Source: Desulfuromonas sp. TF (GTDB lineage: Bacteria; Desulfobacterota; Desulfuromonadia; Desulfuromonadales; ATBO01). From it: a stretch of DNA of 64,000 nt. Made by a program: the position numbers and the translations under genes. Each line of letters begins with the position of its first letter. Positions within the stretch are counted from its first letter, which is position 1. Shown here piece by piece: positions 17,622 through 62,400 of this stretch. The stretch is taken from the NCBI RefSeq assembly GCF_000472285.1, contig NZ_KI421412.1, positions 135,051-199,050 of the forward strand, given 5' to 3'. The notes under the pieces are model-generated. The model was not told the DNA's origin. It made no database searches and saw nothing but the letters and a program-made list of their open reading frames with translations.

Positions 17622-17653
17622 AAAAAAGGGCAGCCCGCGAAGGCTGCCCTTTT
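17622..17653 (-). terminator. Terminator of pckA (bidirectional)
   Basis: AAAAGGGCAGCC and GGCTGCCCTTTT form a near-perfect stem with T runs on both strands. It lies 27 bases beyond the pckA stop, between two converging genes. Confidence 0.88.
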
Positions 17654-38991: not shown

Positions 38992-39030
38992 AGGCACTTG
39001 CGGTATGATCCGCAAGTGCCTTTTCTTTTT
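38992..39030 (+). terminator. Terminator after tRNA-Ala
   Basis: AGGCACTTGCGG and CCGCAAGTGCCT form a 12-bp perfect stem with a 6-base loop, followed by TTTTCTTTTT. It lies 9 bases after the tRNA. Confidence 0.95.
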
Positions 39031-53269: not shown

Positions 53270-54361
53270 TCAGGTTCCGTACTTGTACTCCGCCGCGCAG
53301 GTCCCCTCGCTGGAGACCATGCATGCGCCGACGGGGTTCTCGGGGGTGCAGGCGGTGCGGAAGAGGGGGCACTGCCTCGGCGTGACCTTCCCCTTGAGGA
53401 TCTCGCCGCAGGCGCACCCCTGGTGCTCCCTGGGCTCTTCCACCTCGACGGGGAGGCGGGTTGCGGCGTCGAAGGCGGCGTATTCCGGGCGCAGGCCCAG
53501 GCCGCTGCCGGGGATGACGCCGATGCCTCGCCAGCGGGCGTCGCAGGGCTCGAAGACCCGGTAGAGGACCTCGCGGGCCTTGGGGTTCCCTCCCGCCTTG
53601 ACCACCCGGCTGTACTGAATCTCCACCTTCGCCTCTCCGGCGACGACCTGCCGGGCGAGCATCTCCACCCCCTGCAGCATGTCCAGGGGCTCGAAGCCGG
53701 TCACGACAGAGGGGACCTTGTGGTCGCGGGCGAGAGGCTCGTACGCCTCCGCGCCGATGATGGCGCTGACGTGGGCGGGGCAGAGATAGCCGTCGACCTG
53801 CAGCCCGGGGTCGTCGGCGAGGATGGCCATGGGGCCGGGGATGGTCTTGTGGGCGCAGAGGACGAAATAGTTGTCCAGCCCTCGCCGCTGCGCCTCGATG
53901 ACCGAGCCGGCGATCGTCGGAGCAGTCGTCTCGAAGCCGACGCCGAGAAAAACCACCGACCTGTCCGGATGCTTCGCCGCCAGGGCGACGGCATCAAGGG
54001 GGGAGTAGACGATGCGCACGTCGGCGCCGGCGGCCTGCTCGTTCACCAGGCTGCTCGTCGAGCCGGGAACCCGCACCATGTCCCCGAAGGTGGCGATGAC
54101 GGTGCCGGGGCGGCGGGCGAGGGCCACGGCATGATCGACGTAGTCCACGGGAGTGACGCAGACCGGGCAGCCGGGGCCGGAGATCAGCCGGATCTTCTCC
54201 GGCAGCAGGCTGCGGATGCCGTGCTGATAGATGGCCATGGTGTGGGTCCCGCAGACTTCCATGAAGGTCATGGAGCCGGCGTGATCCCGGACGGTATCGG
54301 CAATCCTTTCGAGGAGGTGTTTGGCGACATCGGGGTTACGGAATTCTCTAGTATATGTCAT
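53270..54361 (-). CDS. hypD: Hydrogenase maturation factor HypD
   Basis: A 363-residue iron-sulfur scaffold. Characteristic blocks are MEVCGTHTMAIYQHGIRSLL, GPGCPVCVTP, GFETTAPTIA and the C-terminal cysteine cluster ACGEILKG...QCPLFRTACTPENPVGACM. With HypC it assembles the Fe(CN)2CO group. Its ATG overlaps the hypC stop by 4 bases, so HypC and HypD are translationally coupled. Confidence 0.96.
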   Translation of the reverse strand: MTYTREFRNPDVAKHLLERIADTVRDHAGSMTFMEVCGTHTMAIYQHGIRSLLPEKIRLISGPGCPVCVTPVDYVDHAVALARRPGTVIATFGDMVRVPGSTSSLVNEQAAGADVRIVYSPLDAVALAAKHPDRSVVFLGVGFETTAPTIAGSVIEAQRRGLDNYFVLCAHKTIPGPMAILADDPGLQVDGYLCPAHVSAIIGAEAYEPLARDHKVPSVVTGFEPLDMLQGVEMLARQVVAGEAKVEIQYSRVVKAGGNPKAREVLYRVFEPCDARWRGIGVIPGSGLGLRPEYAAFDAATRLPVEVEEPREHQGCACGEILKGKVTPRQCPLFRTACTPENPVGACMVSSEGTCAAEYKYGT

Positions 54362-54588
54362 TCCGGCATTGCCCCCCGGGCTAACAGCTCTCGGAAGATC
54401 TGCAGGGTCTCCCGGGCGTTCTCCTCGTCCAGCTTCTCGATGGCGAACCCGGCGTGGATGATGACGAAATCCCCCACGGACACGCCGTCGACCATCATCA
54501 GACTCGCCTCCCTCCGGACGCCGTCGATCTCGCAGACCGCCGTCTCCCCGTCAATGCTCATCACCTGCATAGGTACGCCTAGACACAT
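54358..54588 (-). CDS. hypC: Hydrogenase maturation chaperone HypC
   Basis: A 76-residue chaperone beginning MCLGVPMQV, whose Cys2 holds the iron complex after Met removal. The central beta barrel is typical (VSVGDFVIIHAGFAIEKLD). It carries the Fe ligand group between HypD and the hydrogenase large subunit. GGGAGC lies before the ATG. The upstream gap to hypB holds a heptamer array. Confidence 0.96.
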   Translation of the reverse strand: MCLGVPMQVMSIDGETAVCEIDGVRREASLMMVDGVSVGDFVIIHAGFAIEKLDEENARETLQIFRELLARGAMPE

Positions 54589-54609
54589 CGCAAGCTCCCT
54601 TTGGAAATC

Positions 54610-54722
54610 GGTGATCAGTGATCGGTGATCAGTGATCGGTGATCGGTAAAAGCTCTAACGGATCACTGATCACGGATCACTGATCACCAGTTACTAATCA
54701 CTGATCACCAGTTACCAATCAC
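54610..54722. repeat. Heptamer inverted-repeat array 2 (GTGATCA/GTGATCG), hypB-hypC gap
   Basis: The left arm (54610-54646) repeats GTGATCA/GTGATCG units. The right arm (54661-54722) repeats the complementary ATCACTG/ATCACCA units and runs into the end of hypB. The same heptamer occurs at 53.2 kb, so one hyp operon contains two copies. Confidence 0.88.
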
Positions 54723-55489
54723 CGTCCTTTTCTTTTCACTCCCTCAGCCAGCCACTCATACCAGGCGTCCATCCCCTCGCCGCTGTGGCAGGAGAGCTCG
54801 AAGATGCGGATGCCCGGATTGACCCGGCGGGCGAAGTCCTTGCATTTCTCCATGTCGAAGCGCAGGTAGGGGAGCAGGTCGATCTTGTTGATCAGCATCA
54901 CGTCGGCGGCGTGAAACATGTTGGGGTACTTGACCGGCTTGTCCTCTCCCTCGGTGACGGAAAGGACGGCGACCTTGTGGTCCTCGCCCAGGTCGAAGGA
55001 GGCGGGGCAGACCAGGTTGCCGACGTTCTCGATCATCAGCAGGTCGGCGGCGTCGAGATCGAAATGCTCCACGCCGTGGCCGACCATGTGGGCGTCCAGG
55101 TGGCAGCCGGCGCCGGTGTTGATCTGCCGCACCGGCACCCCCGTGGCGGCGATGCGCTCGGCATCGTTGGAGGTCTGCTGGTCCCCTTCCAGAACGGCGA
55201 AGGAGTGCCGGCCGCCGAGGTCGGTGAGGGTCCGCTCCAGGATCGACGTCTTTCCCGAGCCGGGGGAGCTGACCAGGTTGAGGACGAAGAGCCCCTTCTC
55301 GGAGAAGAGCGCCCGGTTGCCCGCGGCCAGCCGGTTGTTCTTGCCGAGAATGTCCTCCTCGATGCGGATCGTTTTAGCGCCGGCGTCGTGCCCGTGCTCG
55401 TGCTCGTGGTGACCATGACCGTGGGAATGACCGTGGTCATGATCGTGATGGTGATGCTGCGCGGGCTCGCAGCCGCAGTCGGTGCACAT
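54719..55489 (-). CDS. hypB: Hydrogenase nickel incorporation GTPase HypB
   Basis: A 256-residue Ni-binding GTPase. The N-terminus has the high-affinity site CTDCGC followed by a His-rich stretch (residues about 12-33, His/Asp/Gly repeats) that stores nickel. The G domain has P-loop [20 protein letters not shown] and NKIDLLP. It inserts nickel with HypA. The start is ATG 55489; an in-frame open region continuing to 56374 overlaps hypA and repeats and is not coding. It starts 3 bases after the hypA stop. Confidence 0.95.
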
Positions 55490-55491
55490 GT

Positions 55492-55833
55492 CTAGTCGAC
55501 CTCCATTTCCTTGATGCGCAGCTCCTCGCCCTGCAGGATTTCCAGGGCGAAAGCGTCGCAGGACGGGCAGGCGAAGCTGTAGCGGTCGATACCGGTCTCT
55601 CGGCGGCAGTCGCCGCATCGGGCGCGGCCCGGGATGCTTTCGATGATCAGCTTGCTTTCTTCCAGCAGGGTCCCCCGGGAGCAGGCTTCGAAGGCGAATT
55701 CGACCGCTTCGGGAACGACCCCCGAGAGCTCGCCTATTTCGACGGTCAGGGACAGAACTTTCCGGGCGCCGCCCTCCATGGCGTGCCTTTCGGCGATTTC
55801 GATGATGCTCTGTGTGATTCCGAGTTCGTGCAT
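55492..55833 (-). CDS. hypA: Hydrogenase nickel chaperone HypA
   Basis: A 113-residue metallochaperone. It opens with [10 protein letters not shown], whose His2 and Glu3 help bind nickel, and carries a zinc site with CGDCRRE and CPSCDAF. It partners HypB, which follows within 3 bases. It heads the hypA-B-C-D-E operon; upstream lies the repeat-rich region. Confidence 0.95.
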
Positions 55834-56020
55834 TCGCCGCTTGTCTTTCGAGGGGTTTTGGAGATGAGAAACGATCCACCGATTCTACCGCAGAAACACA
55901 AGAGAACAAGCTTTTTCCATGCCGAACTCGTTTGCATTTGGCGTAGCGATTTCTTTTCCGACCACCATCTGCACGGTAAGTAAGCCGCTGCCATTGACCA
56001 GGTCGTTGCTTCGTGGCAGC

Positions 56021-56302
56021 GAAGAGGGGCCTGATCTTTTCCGCCCCCCTCAGGAGCGGGAATTTTTTCTGAAAACGGGAACTGCACCGCCAGTGCGAGC
56101 CTCGATGTTGGAGACCCATTGCGAGAAGCTCCCGTCTGACACCGGTGCGGATAAGCAAGCGGTAGTAATCCGCAGCTCTCTCGTTGATAACCACAACGAT
56201 CGGCGCAGACATGCTCCACGCCAGTGGCAGGCCCTTTTCTGCATACTCTCTCTTAGGCCAGTAAAAGAGGACGGCGCCGTCAGGGGCGCAACCCCCGGGT
56301 CT
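56021..56302 (+). repeat. R1 repeat, copy A
   Basis: A copy of a ~240-280-bp repeat with four other copies in this window. It has the core CCATTGCGAG, the invariant CTCCACGCCAGTGG (about 56215-56228) and a hairpin around GGCCAG with one mismatch in its stem (CTCTCTTA/TAAAAGAG), then GGGGCGCAACCCCC. With copy D it shares about 50 extra bases at the left end (GGGGCCTGATCT). No credible gene lies in it. Confidence 0.8.
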
Positions 56303-56317
56303 TGATGTGCCTGTTTT

Positions 56318-56465
56318 TTCTTTGACACTCTTTATGGATAAATTGTACCCTCTGGCTTTATTTGCATTGGACATGGGGGCTGTGCTGAGGTCGAAAGAGA
56401 GGGAAGTGAGAATTTTGAACCGCCTTTGCCGGTGATATGCGGCAGGGGCGGTTTTTTGCGTTATA
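56318..56465 (+). ncRNA. R2 unit copy 1, candidate small RNA
   Basis: A promoter-like pair, TTGACA (56322-56327) and TACCCT (56346-56351) with 18-base spacing, is followed after about 70 bases by a 12-bp hairpin CCGCCTTTGCCG/CGGCAGGGGCGG (56420-56451) and TTTTTT. The unit is nearly repeated at 56948-57094 with promoter, spacing and hairpin kept. No reading frame of substance lies between. This is compatible with a ~100-nt small RNA, inferred from structure only. Confidence 0.5.
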
Positions 56466-56734
56466 GGATTGAGCGGTTCGAATCCCTAAGATCTCCTCGG
56501 CTCATGCCCGCCGAAGCCTTGGCGAAGGCGGGTGCTTCTGGCCATTGGGGCTGAAGGTGGGGAGGGATATTGGGAATGATACGCGGTCGATCGGAAGTCA
56601 ACAAGTCACCAGCTCCAAGTCACCAGCGTCCCCACTGAATTCCCAGACTCGTTGGGCACTATAGGAAAGGGTCGATGAGTCTCACAGGCGGTAATTCTGA
56701 CAGTGATAAACTCGCTGTGCTTTCGATGCCTGCA

Positions 56735-56944
56735 CGCGAGGTGCAGACATGAGGTCGGTGAACCATTGCGAGAGGTCCCCGTTTACAGCCGGTGCCGATA
56801 AGTGTGCTGTGGTGATCTGCGGCGCGTTGTTAATGACCCCGGAGATCGGCACAGGAGTGCTCCACGCCAGTGGCAGGGTCCTTTCTTTGGTGACTTTCTT
56901 TGGACCAGCAAAGAAAGTCACCCGGCCGCCGGCCGGGACCGGCG
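56735..56944 (+). repeat. R1 repeat, copy B
   Basis: It shares the CCATTGCGAGAGG core and CTCCACGCCAGTGGCAGG. The hairpin is different in sequence from other copies: TGACTTTCTTTG (56891-56902) pairs perfectly over 12 bp with CAAAGAAAGTCA (56909-56920) around GACCAG. A GC-rich second stem (CCGGCCGCCGGCCGGG) follows. It directly precedes R2 copy 2. Confidence 0.8.
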
Positions 56945-56947
56945 AAT

Positions 56948-57094
56948 TTCTTTGACACTCTTTATGGATAAATTGTAACCTCTGGCTTTATTTGCATTGT
57001 GCATTGGGGATGGGATGAGATTGAGAGAGGGAAGACAGATTTGAACCGCCTTTGCCGGTGATGTGCCGGCAGGGGCGATTTTTTTGCGTTATAA
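56948..57094 (+). ncRNA. R2 unit copy 2, candidate small RNA
   Basis: TTGACA (56952-56957) and TAACCT (56976-56981) have the same 18-base spacing as copy 1, and the hairpin CGCCTTTGCCGG/CCGGCAGGGGCG (57047-57077) with a T run follows. Compared with copy 1 the hairpin is shifted by one pair at each end, yet keeps a 12-bp stem. The middle of the unit diverges more than its ends. Confidence 0.5.
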
Positions 57095-57229
57095 CCCTTA
57101 CACGCCGATTTTCGGCATCAAAAATAACCCTGTAAGCACAGGGGCAACAGGGAACCAGAACACACTCTCCCCGTCGCACACCGCCCCGAACCCTCCATCT
57201 ACTCCAACTCTCACCAAAAAGCATCCCCC

Positions 57230-57739
57230 ATGTCCGAAACAATCATCATCCTCAACTACCGCCTCACCAGGGAACTCTGGCAACAGTTCCTGGATGCCCA
57301 TTTCAGCAGCAACCCCACGCTCAAAATGCGCTACCTGTGGGGCGTACTCTGCATCATGATCGGCGCGCTCGGTTTCGGCGGGTTCTATCACTCGCCCGTC
57401 ATCGCCTCGCTGCTTCTTGCCACCGGCCTGTTCGCTGTTTTGTCAAAACACCTGCTGGTCGCCAAATCCCTGCGTACAGCCTGCCGTCACCCCTTCTTCG
57501 GCGAAGAGCTGACCGTGGCGATTTCGCAGGACGAGCTCTCGGTGCGCAGCGGGACGTCCGGTTACCGCCAGCCCTGGAATAATTTCGTAGGTTACCGGAA
57601 ACGGGCTCCCGGTTTCCTGCTCTATCACGACCGGAGCGCCTTCTTCTTCGTCCCCGAGGGCGTCATGAGCGCCGGTCAGGCCAGGCGATTCAAGGATATT
57701 CTCGATGCGGCCGGTGTGCCGGACCTCTCCGGAAGCTGA
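57230..57739 (+). CDS. YcxB-like membrane protein
   Basis: A 169-residue protein with two membrane helices (LWGVLCIMIGALGFGGFYH and VIASLLLATGLFAVLS) and a C-terminal PH-like beta domain (DELSVRSGTSGYRQPWNNFV, FFFVPEGVM). This is the layout of the YcxB family of unknown function. There is no strong ribosome site before the ATG. It is isolated between repeat clusters and starts 56 bases before the SDR gene on the same strand. Confidence 0.75.
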   Translation: MSETIIILNYRLTRELWQQFLDAHFSSNPTLKMRYLWGVLCIMIGALGFGGFYHSPVIASLLLATGLFAVLSKHLLVAKSLRTACRHPFFGEELTVAISQDELSVRSGTSGYRQPWNNFVGYRKRAPGFLLYHDRSAFFFVPEGVMSAGQARRFKDILDAAGVPDLSGS

Positions 57740-57794
57740 TAGGGATGTTGATTTAGGATATACTTTTCCCCTCAGCTTCCGAAAGGAGCCCCCC

Positions 57795-58619
57795 ATGTCC
57801 TCCCTCCAAGGCAAAACCCTCTTCATCACCGGCGCCAGCCGGGGCGTCGGCAAGGCCATCGCCCTGCGGGCAGCCGCCGACGGCGCCAACATCGTCATCG
57901 CCGCCAAATCGGTGCGCTCCCGCGACCGCCTCCCCGGCACGATCTATTCAGCCGCCGAGGAGATCGAAGCCGCCGGCGGGCGAGCCCTGCCGGTGCAGAC
58001 CGACATCCGCGACGAGGAGCAGATCCGGCACGCCGTCGAGAAGGGGGTGGAGGCCTTCGGCGGGATCGACATCCTCGTCAACAACGCCAGCGCCATCTCC
58101 CTGACCGGCACCCGCGAAACCCCCCTCAAGCGCTTCGACCTGATGTTCGGGGTCAACGTGCGCGGCACCTTCGCCTGCTCGCAGGCCTGCCTACCCCACC
58201 TGGAAAGGGCCGCCAACCCCCACATCCTCAACCTCTCCCCGCCGCTGAACATGAACCCCCGCTGGTTCCGGGACCATGTCGCCTACACCATGTCCAAGTA
58301 CGGGATGAGCCTATGCGTACTGGGAATGGCGGAAGAATTCCGCCCGGCCGGAATCGCCGTCAACGCCCTCTGGCCCCGCACCGTCATCGCCACCGCCGCC
58401 CTCGCCATGCTCGGCGGCGCCGTCAAACCCGAGCAGTGCCGCACCCCCGAAATCCTCGCCGACGCCGCCCACGCCATCCTCACCCGCGACAGCCGCCAGT
58501 GCACCGGCAACTTCTTCATCGACGACGAGGTACTGGCCGAGGATGGGATCACCGATCTCGATCGGTACGCCGTCCAGCCGGGCGAGCCCCTCTTCCCCGA
58601 TCTCTTCCTGGATACCTGA
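57795..58619 (+). CDS. Short-chain dehydrogenase (HSDL2-like)
   Basis: A 274-residue SDR. The Rossmann motif is TGASRGVGKAI, NNASAISLTGT replaces the usual NNAG, and the catalytic segment is YTMSKYG (YxxxK). The region KSVRSRDRLPGTIYSAAEEI and the tail PGEPLFPDLFLD resemble the HSDL2/SDR12C-type family. GAAAGGAG precedes ATG 57795. Substrate unknown. It is bounded downstream by R1 copies. Confidence 0.85.
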   Translation: MSSLQGKTLFITGASRGVGKAIALRAAADGANIVIAAKSVRSRDRLPGTIYSAAEEIEAAGGRALPVQTDIRDEEQIRHAVEKGVEAFGGIDILVNNASAISLTGTRETPLKRFDLMFGVNVRGTFACSQACLPHLERAANPHILNLSPPLNMNPRWFRDHVAYTMSKYGMSLCVLGMAEEFRPAGIAVNALWPRTVIATAALAMLGGAVKPEQCRTPEILADAAHAILTRDSRQCTGNFFIDDEVLAEDGITDLDRYAVQPGEPLFPDLFLDT

Positions 58620-58660
58620 CCACCCTTTTGGCATCCGGTCCCTCGCGTACGGGTTTTTCA

Positions 58661-58893
58661 CTCAAAACGGGAACTCCGCTGCCAGTGCGGCCATTGATGC
58701 CGGTGAACCATTGTGCGAGGTCTCCGTTCAAAACCGGTGCAGAGAGGCATGTCGCGATTATTCGCAGCGCCATCGTTGATGATCCCGGAGATTGGCAAAA
58801 TAGTGCTCCACGCCAGTGGCAGGCCCTTTTCTGAATACTCTTTTAGGCCAGTAAAAGAGTATTTCGCCGTCGGGGGGCGAGACCCCCGGGTTT
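58661..58893 (+). repeat. R1 repeat, copy C
   Basis: The shared core and CTCCACGCCAGTGGCAGGCCC are present. The hairpin AATACTCTTTTA/TAAAAGAGTATT (58834-58863) is a perfect 12-bp stem around GGCCAG, followed by CGGGGG-GCGAGA-CCCCCG. Overlapping frames on either strand here look like repeat-derived noise. Confidence 0.85.
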
Positions 58894-59009
58894 CGGTGTT
58901 GGCATCTTCGGACCAGAAATCAAGATCGCAGACGCTGCCCCCCCCAATGCCTCATGTCTTCCTCGAGCCGCAGAGCCCGTCCCTGCGGGGATGCCCGAAG
59001 CGCCTGAGA

Positions 59010-59098
59010 GCCCGGGAGATCCCCGCCTTCCTTTCTTTTTATCCCGCCGAAAAGAAAGGAAGCAAAGAAACGGCGGCCACTGGCGTGGAGCATGAAAG
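59010..59098 (-). repeat. R1 repeat, partial inverted copy E
   Basis: On the minus strand CTCCACGCCAGTGG (plus 59077-59090) is followed by a hairpin, plus arms CTTCCTTTCTTTT (59027-59039) and AAAAGAAAGGAAG (59050-59062), a perfect 13-bp stem with a stem sequence unlike copies A, C and D. It sits between copies C and D in opposite orientation; the upstream core is not recognisable. Confidence 0.75.
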
Positions 59099-59100
59099 AC

Positions 59101-59375
59101 GGGGGCCTGATCTCTTCCGGCCCCCTCGGGCGCGAGGTTTTCACCGAAATGGGAACTGCACTGCCGGGGAGTAACTCGACGTTGGAGACCCATTGCGCGA
59201 GGTTTCCGTTTAGCACCGGTGAGGATAAGCACGCCGCAGTCAACGGCAAAGCTGATGTTGATGACTCTAAAGATCGGCGTAGGCGTGCTCCACGCCAGTG
59301 GCAGGCCCTTTTCTGCATACTCTTTTAGGCCTGTAAAAGAGTATGTCGCCGTCGGGGGGCGAGACCCCCGGGTTT
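59101..59375 (+). repeat. R1 repeat, copy D
   Basis: The complete repeat includes the left extension seen in copy A, the core CCATTGCGCGAGG, CTCCACGCCAGTGGCAGGCCC and the hairpin CATACTCTTTTA/TAAAAGAGTATG (59316-59345), again a perfect 12-bp stem. Compared with copy C the outermost A-T pair is C-G, a compensatory change. Confidence 0.85.
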
Positions 59376-59492
59376 GCCTCTCTTCCCCGATCTTTTTCTG
59401 GAAACCGGATCATCCTCCCGCCAAACCACCGTAGCAGGTGCATCAGAGAACATGCCGGGAACGGCTGCGCCTAATCCCGGCCTGCAGTGGTC

Positions 59493-62400
59493 TCAGGCTT
59501 CCGCTTCCACAGCCGCCCCCGCCGCTTCCCGCCCCCGGTCCTTCGAATGATCCCGGGCCACCAGCATGTAGATCGACGGGATGACGAAGAGGGTGAAGAG
59601 GGTGCCGACGGCCATGCCTCCGACCAGCACGAGACCGATGGAGTTCCGGGCCTCGGCACCGGCGCCGGTCACCAGGGTGAGGGGGAAGTGGCCGGCGATG
59701 GTGGCGGCGCTGGTCATGAGGATGGGGCGCAGGCGCGTCATGGAGGCCTCCCGCACCGCTTCCAGCTTGGCATGGCCCCGCAGCTGGAGCTGGTTGGCGA
59801 ACTCGACGATCAGGATGCCGTTCTTCGACACCAGCCCGACCAGGGTCACCAGTCCAACCTGCGAGTAGATGTTGAGAGTGGTCGTCCACCCTTGGGTCCA
59901 GAAGGGGACGCTCGGGTCCGGGATCTTCAGGAAGGTGAAAAGGAGGGCGCCGAACATCGCCAGGGGAACCGATCCGGCGAGGATGACGAAGGGGTCTCGG
60001 AAGCTGTTGAACTGGGCCGCCAGGACCAGGAAGATAAGAATGATGGCCAGGGTGAATGCGGGGAGGAACTTGTTCCCCTCGGTCCGCAGCTGCCGGGACT
60101 CCCCCGTATAGTCGATCACGTAGCCGTCGGGGAGGACTTCGGCGGCGGCCTCCTCCAGGAAATTCAGGGCCTCGTCGAGGGGGCGCACGGCCACCCCGCT
60201 GATCTTCACCGCATTGAGCTGCTGAAAGCGGTTGAGGGAGCGCGGCACGACGGTGTTGCGGATGGTGGCGACGGTGGAGAGGGGGATCAGCTCGTTTTCA
60301 GGCCCGGTGATATAGATGCTGCGGAGCTGGTCCGGGTTGAGGCGGTCCGTCCGCTGAATCTGCGGGATGACCTTGTAGCTTCTGCCGGCGATGTCGAAGC
60401 GGTTGACGAAATCGCCGCCGACCATCGCGCCGAGGTCGGAGCCGACCTGCTCCAGGTCCAGGCCGAGATCGGCCACCTTGTCGCGGTCAATGACGAACTC
60501 CGCCTGCGGCTGGTCGATCTTGACGTCGATCAGCGGCGGGAAGGCGAACATTCCGCTCTGCATCGCCTGGAACTGGATCTGCTCGGCAAATTGCAGGATA
60601 CGGTCGGTTTCCGCCGTGGAGGCGAGGACGAACTCCACCGGGAACTGTCCCCCACCGGGGAGCGCCGGCGGCGTCACCGGGAACATCCGGATGCCGGGGA
60701 TGGCGGAGAGCTTCTGCTGTACTTCGGGAAGGATGTCGAAGATGGTGCGCTCGCGTTCGTCCCAGGGTTCGGTGACCAGGCCGCCGAAGCCCGAAGAGGG
60801 GAAGGTGATCTGGAAGGTGAATTCGGTCTCCGGTACGCTGAGAAAGGCCCGGTTGGCCGCCGCGGCGTAGCGGCTGGTCTGGTCGAGAGTCGAATTGGCC
60901 GCCGCGTCGAGGATGCCGAAGATGACTCCCTGGTCCTCGGTGGGGGCCAGTTCCCTGGGGGACATGATGAACATGGGAACGGTGAGCAGGGAGACGGCAA
61001 TCCATACCAGGTAAACGGCAGGACGGAAACGGAGTGTTCCGTCGAGGAGGCGGCCATAGACGCCGCGCAGGCGCCGGAAGTCGCGGGCGATCCTTCCGGC
61101 CAGCCCGTGCTCCTCGATCCCCGGTTTGAGCAGTTTGGCCGACATGACCGGCGACAGGGTCAGGGCGACGATCCCGGAGATGGTCACCGCCCCGGCCAGG
61201 GTGAAGGCGAATTCGCGGAAGAGCGAGCCGGTGAGCCCCCCCTGCAGGCCGATGGGGAGGTAGACCGCCGCCAGGGTGACGGTCATGGCGATGATCGGCC
61301 CGATCAGTTCCCGGGCGCCGAGCAGGGCGGCGTCGAGGGGTGAGCGCCCCTCGCTCAGATGGCGCTCGACGTTCTCCACCACCACGATGGCGTCGTCGAC
61401 CACCAGACCCACGGAGAGGACGATGGCCAGCAGGGTGAGCAGGTTGACGGTGAAGCCGAAAGCCTGCATCAGGAAGACCGCGCCGATCAGCGACAGGGGG
61501 ATCGCCACCACCGGGACGAAGACGGAGCGGAAAGAGCCCAGAAAGAGGAAGATGACGATAACGACGATGAGCAGGGTCTCGCTCAGAGTCTTGAGCACCT
61601 CGTGAATGGCGTTGTCGATGTACTCGGTGGCGTCGTAGGCGACGCGCGCCTCCAGACCGCCGGGAAGGTCCTTCTGGATGGCCGCCATCTCGGTGCGCAC
61701 GCGCTTGATCACATCGAGGGCGTTGGCGTTGGGCAGAGGCCAGATGCCCATGAAAACCGCTGTCTGGCCGGAGAAGCGCACCTCCGCGTCGTAGTCCTCC
61801 GCGCCCAGGACGACCTCGGCGATGTCCCCAAGCCGCACGATGGCCCCGTTCTCTTCGCGAACGACCAGGCGCTCGAAGTCGCGAGGATCGCTCAGGTTGG
61901 TGTCGGCGGTCAGGTTGACCTGGATCAGGGATCCCTTGCTCCGGCCGACCGCGGAGAGGAAGTTGTTGGCGGCCAGCGCCCGGCGCACCTGCGCCGGGCT
62001 GACGCCCATGGCCGCCATGCGTTCGGGTTTGAGCCAGATGCGCATGGCGAAGGTCCGGGCGCCGAGGATATCGGCGCGCTGCACCCCTTCCAGGGCCGAT
62101 AGGCGCGGCTGCACGATGCGCACGAGATAATCGGTGATTTCGTTCTGTCGGAGGATGTCGGAGCTGAAGCTGAGATAGGCCGAGGCGAACTCGCTGTCGG
62201 CCGATTCGATGTTGATGATCGGCACCTCGGCCTCGGGAGGGAGATCGGCCCGGACCTGGTCGACCTTGGAGCTGATCTCCGCCAGTGCCTTGGTCGAATC
62301 GTAGTTGAGCTTCAGGCGGACCTTGATGGTCGACAGGCCCAAGGCACTCTGAGACTCGATGTAATCGATGCCGTCGGCGGCGGCGATGGCCCGCTCCAGG

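Follow-up and report, generated by a model that had tools for sequence, protein, structure and literature searches.

Pseudoknotted repeats in Desulfuromonas sp. TF as probable ends of a non-autonomous mobile element

The window analysed here, a stretch of 64,000 nucleotides (nt) from Desulfuromonas sp. TF (contig NZ_KI421412.1, positions 135,051 to 199,050), contains five copies of a repeat with a shared 14-nt motif between window positions 56021 and 59375. These repeats are probably (at roughly 0.6) the ends or halves of a mobile element that is non-autonomous, does not code for protein and measures about 450-620 bp. It would resemble miniature inverted-repeat transposable elements (MITEs) and REPINs, the hairpin-forming pairs of repetitive extragenic palindromes (REPs), and its ends would act as single strands in folded form. 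The pairing of the ends, their spread and their presence or absence at matching sites argue for a mobile element. Covariation and wobbles on one strand argue that the ends are recognized as folded single strands.

Repeat copies and their end types

The motif CTCCACGCCAGTGG occurs exactly at 56214, 56860, 58806 and 59288 on the plus strand and at 59077-59090 on the minus strand, which confirms the five copies reported in an earlier note on this DNA. These five copies compare with 0.62 expected at up to two mismatches, and none of 100 shuffled sequences reached five. The 4.40-Mb genome holds 15 exact copies (none of the reversed control), and copy D used as a query gives 31 matches, nine of which are long alpha-type copies. 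One outcome that the note had named as refuting, a genome with no further copies, thus did not arise. The exact motif was absent from all 57 other searched genomes of the same order. Nor is it invariant, as had been supposed, because other ends of the Desulfuromonas sp. TF genome carry CTCCCGGCAGGGCC or CCAGCGCAGCGCAGG in its place.

Alignment of the copies separates three end types, alpha, beta and gamma, on the 3' side of the motif. Beta ends number about eight in the genome (seven in one count and one more) and gamma ends about nine, some of them truncated. The stems quoted in the earlier note are perfect in copies B (14 bp), C (12 bp), D (12 bp) and E (13 bp), while the stem of copy A is broken by decay (CATACTCTCTCTTA against TAAAAGAGGACGG). 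The note had read the differences among these stems as compensatory change. The stems of C and D, of B and of E belong to three end types and not to one lineage, so that comparison fails, but compensatory change does occur within a type, for example GGTGAC/GTCACC, GGTTCC/GGAACC and GGATAC/GTATCC among beta ends.

In all three types the bases just 3' of the motif (S1) are able to pair with the S2 loop, S2 being the long stem. Each end is an H-type pseudoknot, and the architecture is the same despite differing letters. The selected structure proposed in the earlier note is supported in the form of a kept single-stranded fold, but what it described as a hairpin is really this pseudoknot. The parts listed below are the motif, which can itself fold as a small hairpin (hp0), S1, the linker L1, S2 and a G+C-rich hairpin (hp2) that comes after the pseudoknot.

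56026..56301, plus strand: copy A, body and alpha-type end, partly decayed; motif/hp0 56214-56227; S1 about 56229-56234; L1 56235-56240; S2 56242-56255 / 56262-56274 (broken); hp2 about 56282-56296
56741..56949, plus strand: copy B, body and beta-type end; motif/hp0 56860-56873; S1 about 56875-56881; L1 (TTTCTTT) 56882-56888; S2 56889-56902 / 56909-56922; bases of the loop that pair with S1, about 56901-56907; hp2 56928-56943
58640..58893, plus strand: copy C, body and alpha-type end; motif 58806-58819; S1 about 58821-58826; L1 (TTTTCT) 58827-58832; S2 58834-58845 / 58852-58863; loop 58846-58851; hp2 58872-58887
59008..59094, minus strand: copy E, an inverted gamma-type end that forms the left side of composite E-D; motif 59077-59090; S1 59071-59076; L1 59063-59070; S2 59050-59062 / 59027-59039; loop partner of S1 59044-59049
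59101..59375, plus strand: copy D, the right side of composite E-D, with a central GGGGCC hairpin, a body and an alpha-type end; motif 59288-59301; S1 about 59302-59308; L1 59309-59314; S2 59316-59327 / 59334-59345; loop 59328-59333; hp2 59354-59369
59008..59375, no strand assigned: composite E-D, two outward-facing ends

E-D is a shortened composite. Fuller ones, found at other genomic sites (C1:396.6k, 400.0k and 401.2k; C8:65.3k), measure about 435-450 nt and have a gamma end in one direction and an alpha end in the opposite one. The 3.3 kb that hold the copies, called gene-poor in the earlier note, are not empty of genes: copies B and C are separated by a gene for a YcxB-like protein (57230-57736) and one for a short-chain dehydrogenase (57795-58616).

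Fold of the ends

The pairing of S1 with the loop is GGTCC/GGACC in beta ends, CCGCCG/CGGCGG in gamma ends, and GGCC/GGCC up to CAGGCC/GGCCTG in alpha ends. Rows for comparison were picked by the letters of L1 and S2, except for 7 of 183 that came from BLAST with the beta end, so the columns used for this choice are no evidence; letters were left free in S1, in the loop and in part of the upper stem. Across 74 distinct loops, the longest perfect helix between S1 and the loop averages 4.27, compared with 2.07 in shuffles (maximum 2.78 of 1000). A second set, which takes in two loci of a Herbaspirillum already sampled, gives 4.33 against 2.01 over 18 loops, with none of 2000 shuffles as high. 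A divergent type of hairpin from two genomes (G296 and G275, see below) was kept in the 74-loop test, where it lowers the observed mean, and was omitted from the 66-row alignment and the hp0 count that follow.

Covariation was scored on 66 ungapped rows with loops of 8 only. The score is 0.298, against 0.101 in shuffles (0 of 500 as high) and 0.099 in the best slid register. Doubly changed cells exceed all 500 shuffles and every slid register, 92.7% of cells pair, and four of the five S1 pairs are altered on both sides. Covariation is above these controls, contrary to the second refuting outcome that the note had named, with reservations from two coarser measures given below. The letters of the pairing can change within one genome or even one element. 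The two ends of a single element of genome G569 (locus L274) carry GCACG/CGTGC and GCGTG/CACGC, and genome G187 carries both TGCA/TGCA and TGTG/CACA. At one free upper S2 pair, counted in loci L071-L190, T.G or G.T occurs in 75 of 125 cases and A.C or C.A in none. We take the strand that folds to be the outward-reading one.

The motif can fold as CCAC-GCCA-GTGG, for which other copies substitute CCC-GGCA-GGG. This hp0 hairpin is present in 115 of 167 rows compared with 85 of 170 shuffles, and it was dropped as a defining part and kept as an optional one; loops of the form C-GNA-G are found in 13 of 167 rows and 2 of 170 shuffles. Energy folding, which cannot reveal pseudoknots, gives z-scores of -3.7 for copy B, -1.1 for C, -1.5 for D, -0.7 for E and -2.8 for Caballeronia. 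In its fold of copy B (56858-56952), the S1 strand GGTCC pairs alternatively with GGGACC of hp2, a modelled exchange that might constitute a two-state switch. Folding of the whole element into one hairpin was also considered and rejected, since the outer arms covary weakly.

The pyrimidine linker matches the purines of S2 and likely joins them in a triple helix. L1 reads TTTCTTT in beta ends, TTTTCTTT in gamma ends (TTTCTTT in copy E) and TTTTCT in alpha ends, and the purines of S2 match it in parallel sense (AAAGAAA, AAAAGAAA and AAAAGA, respectively). A scan free of fixed letters, run on loci that were themselves mostly chosen by letters, returned 127 pseudoknots. Over 64 distinct linker/stem pairs, the parallel register scores 6.38 against 5.73 in shuffles (0 of 2000 as high), and the clearest parallel fits are at L028 and L068 (7 against 5).

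Layout, mobility and relatives

Ends occur as 49 outward, 12 inward and 5 same-way pairs, and 45 of the 49 outward pairs, whose loci overlap a little, are 239-594 bp apart. The four outward pairs wider than 750 bp (L134, 854; L062, 1319, enclosing a gene; L074, 5796; L119, 5882) have nothing recurrent between them, and on these 49 pairs the idea of a gene-bearing copy was set aside. At L062 (3079-4398; genome G000, C7:215.0-216.4k), two outward beta ends 1.3 kb apart enclose a gene that reads like an RluA-type pseudouridine synthase from its sequence and may be cargo or have been enclosed by chance.

Units with inverted ends are 0.45-0.62 kb long. In Caballeronia genome G373, all 14 full ends found with one end query form 7 outward pairs of 509-621 bp, and the element occupies about 20-25 places in one Caballeronia replicon. 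BLAST yields 26-134 matches per Caballeronia genome, but this figure includes flanking sequence, fragments and hits on either strand; in G373, 26-28 such matches correspond to only 7 full elements.

Related genomes differ in the sites that are occupied. A 618-bp element of C. arvi is absent from G363, where the flanks meet, and from G391, where about 100 nt of other sequence take its place. A second element is present in G363, G378 and G374 and absent from G391, G379 and G373, in which the flanks are 13-32 bases apart; it seems to be absent from G361 too, where the left flank alone aligned. Precise loss may account for single cases of this kind. Together with the layout of the ends, these sites support the suggestion in the earlier note that the repeats are REP-like mobile hairpins.

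All three loci with local annotation place the units between genes. Rough open reading frame (ORF) calls put 43 of 102 units inside an ORF of at least 100 amino acids, and we take these to be spurious frames. The longest ORF has a median of 127 amino acids in 32 units and 105 in shuffles, which makes the non-coding status less sure. Such hairpins have been annotated as small spurious proteins, and frames such as VTFFAAAKKVTKES occur in the elements (ORF scan).

The beta end matches eight records, from replicons of Caballeronia, Variovorax and Paraburkholderia and the Fusobacteriota plasmid pILYOP01. Seven loci of the Betaproteobacterial type align mutually over about 200-240 nt at 78-93% identity, and L150 and L152 less well. 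Similar architecture with other letters is found in Beta- and Gammaproteobacteria, Desulfuromonadales and Ilyobacter. The pattern TTTCTTTGNNNNCTTTCTTTN{5,12}AAAGAAAG matches 6 of 297 genomes of the phylum and 20 of 274 genomes in the class of a Herbaspirillum, with no match to its reverse in either list, and a stricter pattern occurs in at least 120 stretches of named genomes, among which are two assemblies labelled Desulfuromonadales. A phage origin was considered and set aside: the beta end matched no phage record, and the pattern occurs in 16 stretches of 2.9 million viral contigs.

Two of the six genomes of the phylum, G296 and G275, carry what is probably another, terminator-like family. 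G296 has 28 hairpins and G275 one copy with the letters TTTCTTTG...CTTTCTTT, a T-rich loop and little S1 pairing (for example L070). Three G296 hairpins stand in a row about 100 bp apart (L070 2332, 2431 and 2531), and some adjoin apparent tRNA genes.

The region 55000-60000 gave one Rfam 15 match at 14.2 bits against a gathering threshold of 50, and twelve other loci gave just a signal recognition particle (SRP) RNA at L190 563-661, away from the end. Among the matches listed from open-licence full-text literature, no description of the family was found, and in one set of listed papers only the short word TTTCTTTGG occurred of its letters.

Alternatives, known systems and the enzyme

Several results weigh against mobile ends that fold as single-stranded pseudoknots. 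On the 66-row alignment, two measures coarser than the covariation score do not rise above shuffles (8 pairs changed on both sides against 6.8, reached by 89 of 500; 22 further pair types against 20.7, reached by 140 of 500), and the S1 helix is formed in just 76.4% of cells. These shuffles take no account of relatedness, and Caballeronia supplies many of the rows. Alpha ends of Desulfuromonas sp. TF have only 4-6 bp of S1. The second free S2 pair is almost without wobble (1 of 125), and three A.C combinations occur, in further rows, at a neighbouring pair fixed by the scan. The outer arms covary little inside one element (16 of 1000). For the triple helix, the antiparallel register also beats shuffles (6.23 against 5.80, 0 of 2000 as high), and the parallel one is better in 23 of the 64 pairs, the antiparallel in 15, with 26 tied; when a leading C or G is assigned to S1, the antiparallel register is better in 5 of those 15, and the parallel in 23. 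The single clean empty site (G363) indicates a possible 3-nt TTC target duplication, other sites being too diverged. No autonomous copy was found among the G373 full ends and the 49 outward pairs, which are a sample only. No transposase was found either, and none of 13 loci with a Y1_Tnp gene (PF01797) in ten host genomes has an end within about 1.5 kb.

Alternatively, the ends could act as host RNA, a 3'-end stabilizing or regulatory structure comparable to the triple-helix elements for nuclear expression (ENE elements) in some transposon RNAs, kept for expression and not for movement. The T.G or G.T combinations at one S2 pair (75 of 125), which in RNA would be U.G, fit this, the layout would place the knot near the 3' end of whichever strand is transcribed, and a retrotransposon RNA of a plant is protected by a triple helix in which its poly(A) tail takes part, according to part of PMC12501189. 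We nevertheless consider a host RNA unlikely. Related species differ in the copies that they carry, and single ends are placed without clear bias with respect to flanking genes (15 ++, 14 +-, 12 -- and 10 -+ by rough ORF calls, excluding units 300 bases or less from the end of a locus); the lack of a clear orientation bias argues against a plain 3' untranslated region role. Somewhat less probable still is an ordinary MITE of a DDE insertion sequence, whose duplex terminal inverted repeats would be bound by a transposase and whose internal palindromes would be protein sites. Inverted ends, a length of 0.45-0.62 kb, the 20-25 places in one replicon and presence or absence at matching sites are all as such an element would have them, but interleaved inverted repeats that covary, with letters changing even within one genome (G187), and wobbles on one strand point to a folded single strand. 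Transcription terminators gathered between genes are very improbable: 12 terminator-like sites lie in window 55900-59500 (3.9 expected), several being hp2 or partial stems of copies, and pairs are commoner between convergent genes (12 +-, 7 ++, 4 -- and 4 -+ in the same survey), but no T run follows hp2 among the Caballeronia pairs listed, and a terminator has no need of S1-loop pairing or of an arrangement in pairs that form units of about 620 bp.

If the repeats are mobile-element ends, each would present, read outward on one strand, an optional hp0, the pseudoknot of S1 with the S2 loop, and the G+C-rich hairpin, with L1 placed against the S2 purines, where it may form a triple helix. A trans-acting enzyme would recognize this folded strand, as single-stranded DNA or RNA, at each end and move the element, which we infer to be without a host role. 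RNA would be favoured by the wobbles and the triple-helix idea, and single-stranded DNA by the REP-like layout. A bolder proposal, which we regard as speculative, is that elements in several phyla are recognized and moved through triple-helix pseudoknots, their letters drifting while the fold is kept. They might be RNA-templated in the manner of short interspersed nuclear elements (SINEs), with either strand transcribed and a recognition knot near its 3' end.

The earlier note also proposed a search for a RAYT-type transposase. Y1_Tnp genes are indeed present in all ten host genomes tested (13 matches; 5 of 14 in a control set). Because repeat-free genomes were not compared, this is no evidence of association, and with no end beside the gene in any of the 13 loci a RAYT partner was rejected. 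Near-motif matches (up to two changes) at the Y1_Tnp loci L213 and L218 lack the pseudoknot.

According to passages of PMC2817692, REPs, bacterial interspersed mosaic elements (BIMEs) and REPINs are many-copy, inverted pairs of palindromic ends in which complementary changes keep the palindromes, headed 5' by GTAG or GTGG. The present family shares the copy number, the inverted pairs and the position between genes. However, its ends, of about 90 nt, are a pseudoknot plus a hairpin and not simple headed palindromes, its units are larger, and no RAYT-type gene adjoins the ends in the 13 loci. By eye, no GTAG or GTGG head of the kind given in those passages was seen 5' of the palindrome among the ends listed. 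The family stands apart from REPINs because it lacks both the RAYT flank and this head.

MITEs are likewise short elements with terminal inverted repeats between genes. They include the prokaryotic Chunjie of Geobacter uraniireducens, set beside the family here by description alone, from part of PMC10969869, a review whose main text does not contain the word 'pseudoknot'. In comparison with typical MITEs, no autonomous partner was seen in the sample described above, and the possible TTC is the one candidate for a target duplication. The family works like REPINs and MITEs and is apparently unnamed. Eukaryotic ENE elements, as portrayed in part of PMC12501189, resemble the proposed fold in having a triple helix within transposon sequence. 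There the RNA tail joins, whereas here the third strand would be the pseudoknot linker, in bacteria and at both element ends.

Hairpins of this kind occur in a minority of proteobacterial genomes, sometimes in many copies. Their identification as mobile-element ends with a kept pseudoknot would turn them into a searchable family and provide a route to its enzyme. Should the triple helix hold, bacteria would offer an example of a transposable element defined by the tertiary fold of a nucleic acid.

The window holds several other features. Genes for HypD, a protein with a CobW/HypB/UreG-type domain and HypA lie at 53270-55900 on the minus strand, just to the left of copy A. Behind copies A and B stands another repeat, about 140 nt long (56317-56465 and 56947-57093, respectively), which recurs on C1 (L016 6862-6993 and 7966-8095). 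Its window copies close with a terminator-like hairpin, GAACCGCC...GGGGCGGTTTTTT. Only two other perfect stems of at least 12 bp with loops of 4-10 occur in the window, at 17624-17653 and 38992-39021. Each resembles an intrinsic terminator, and the one at 38992-39021 seems to follow a tRNA gene.

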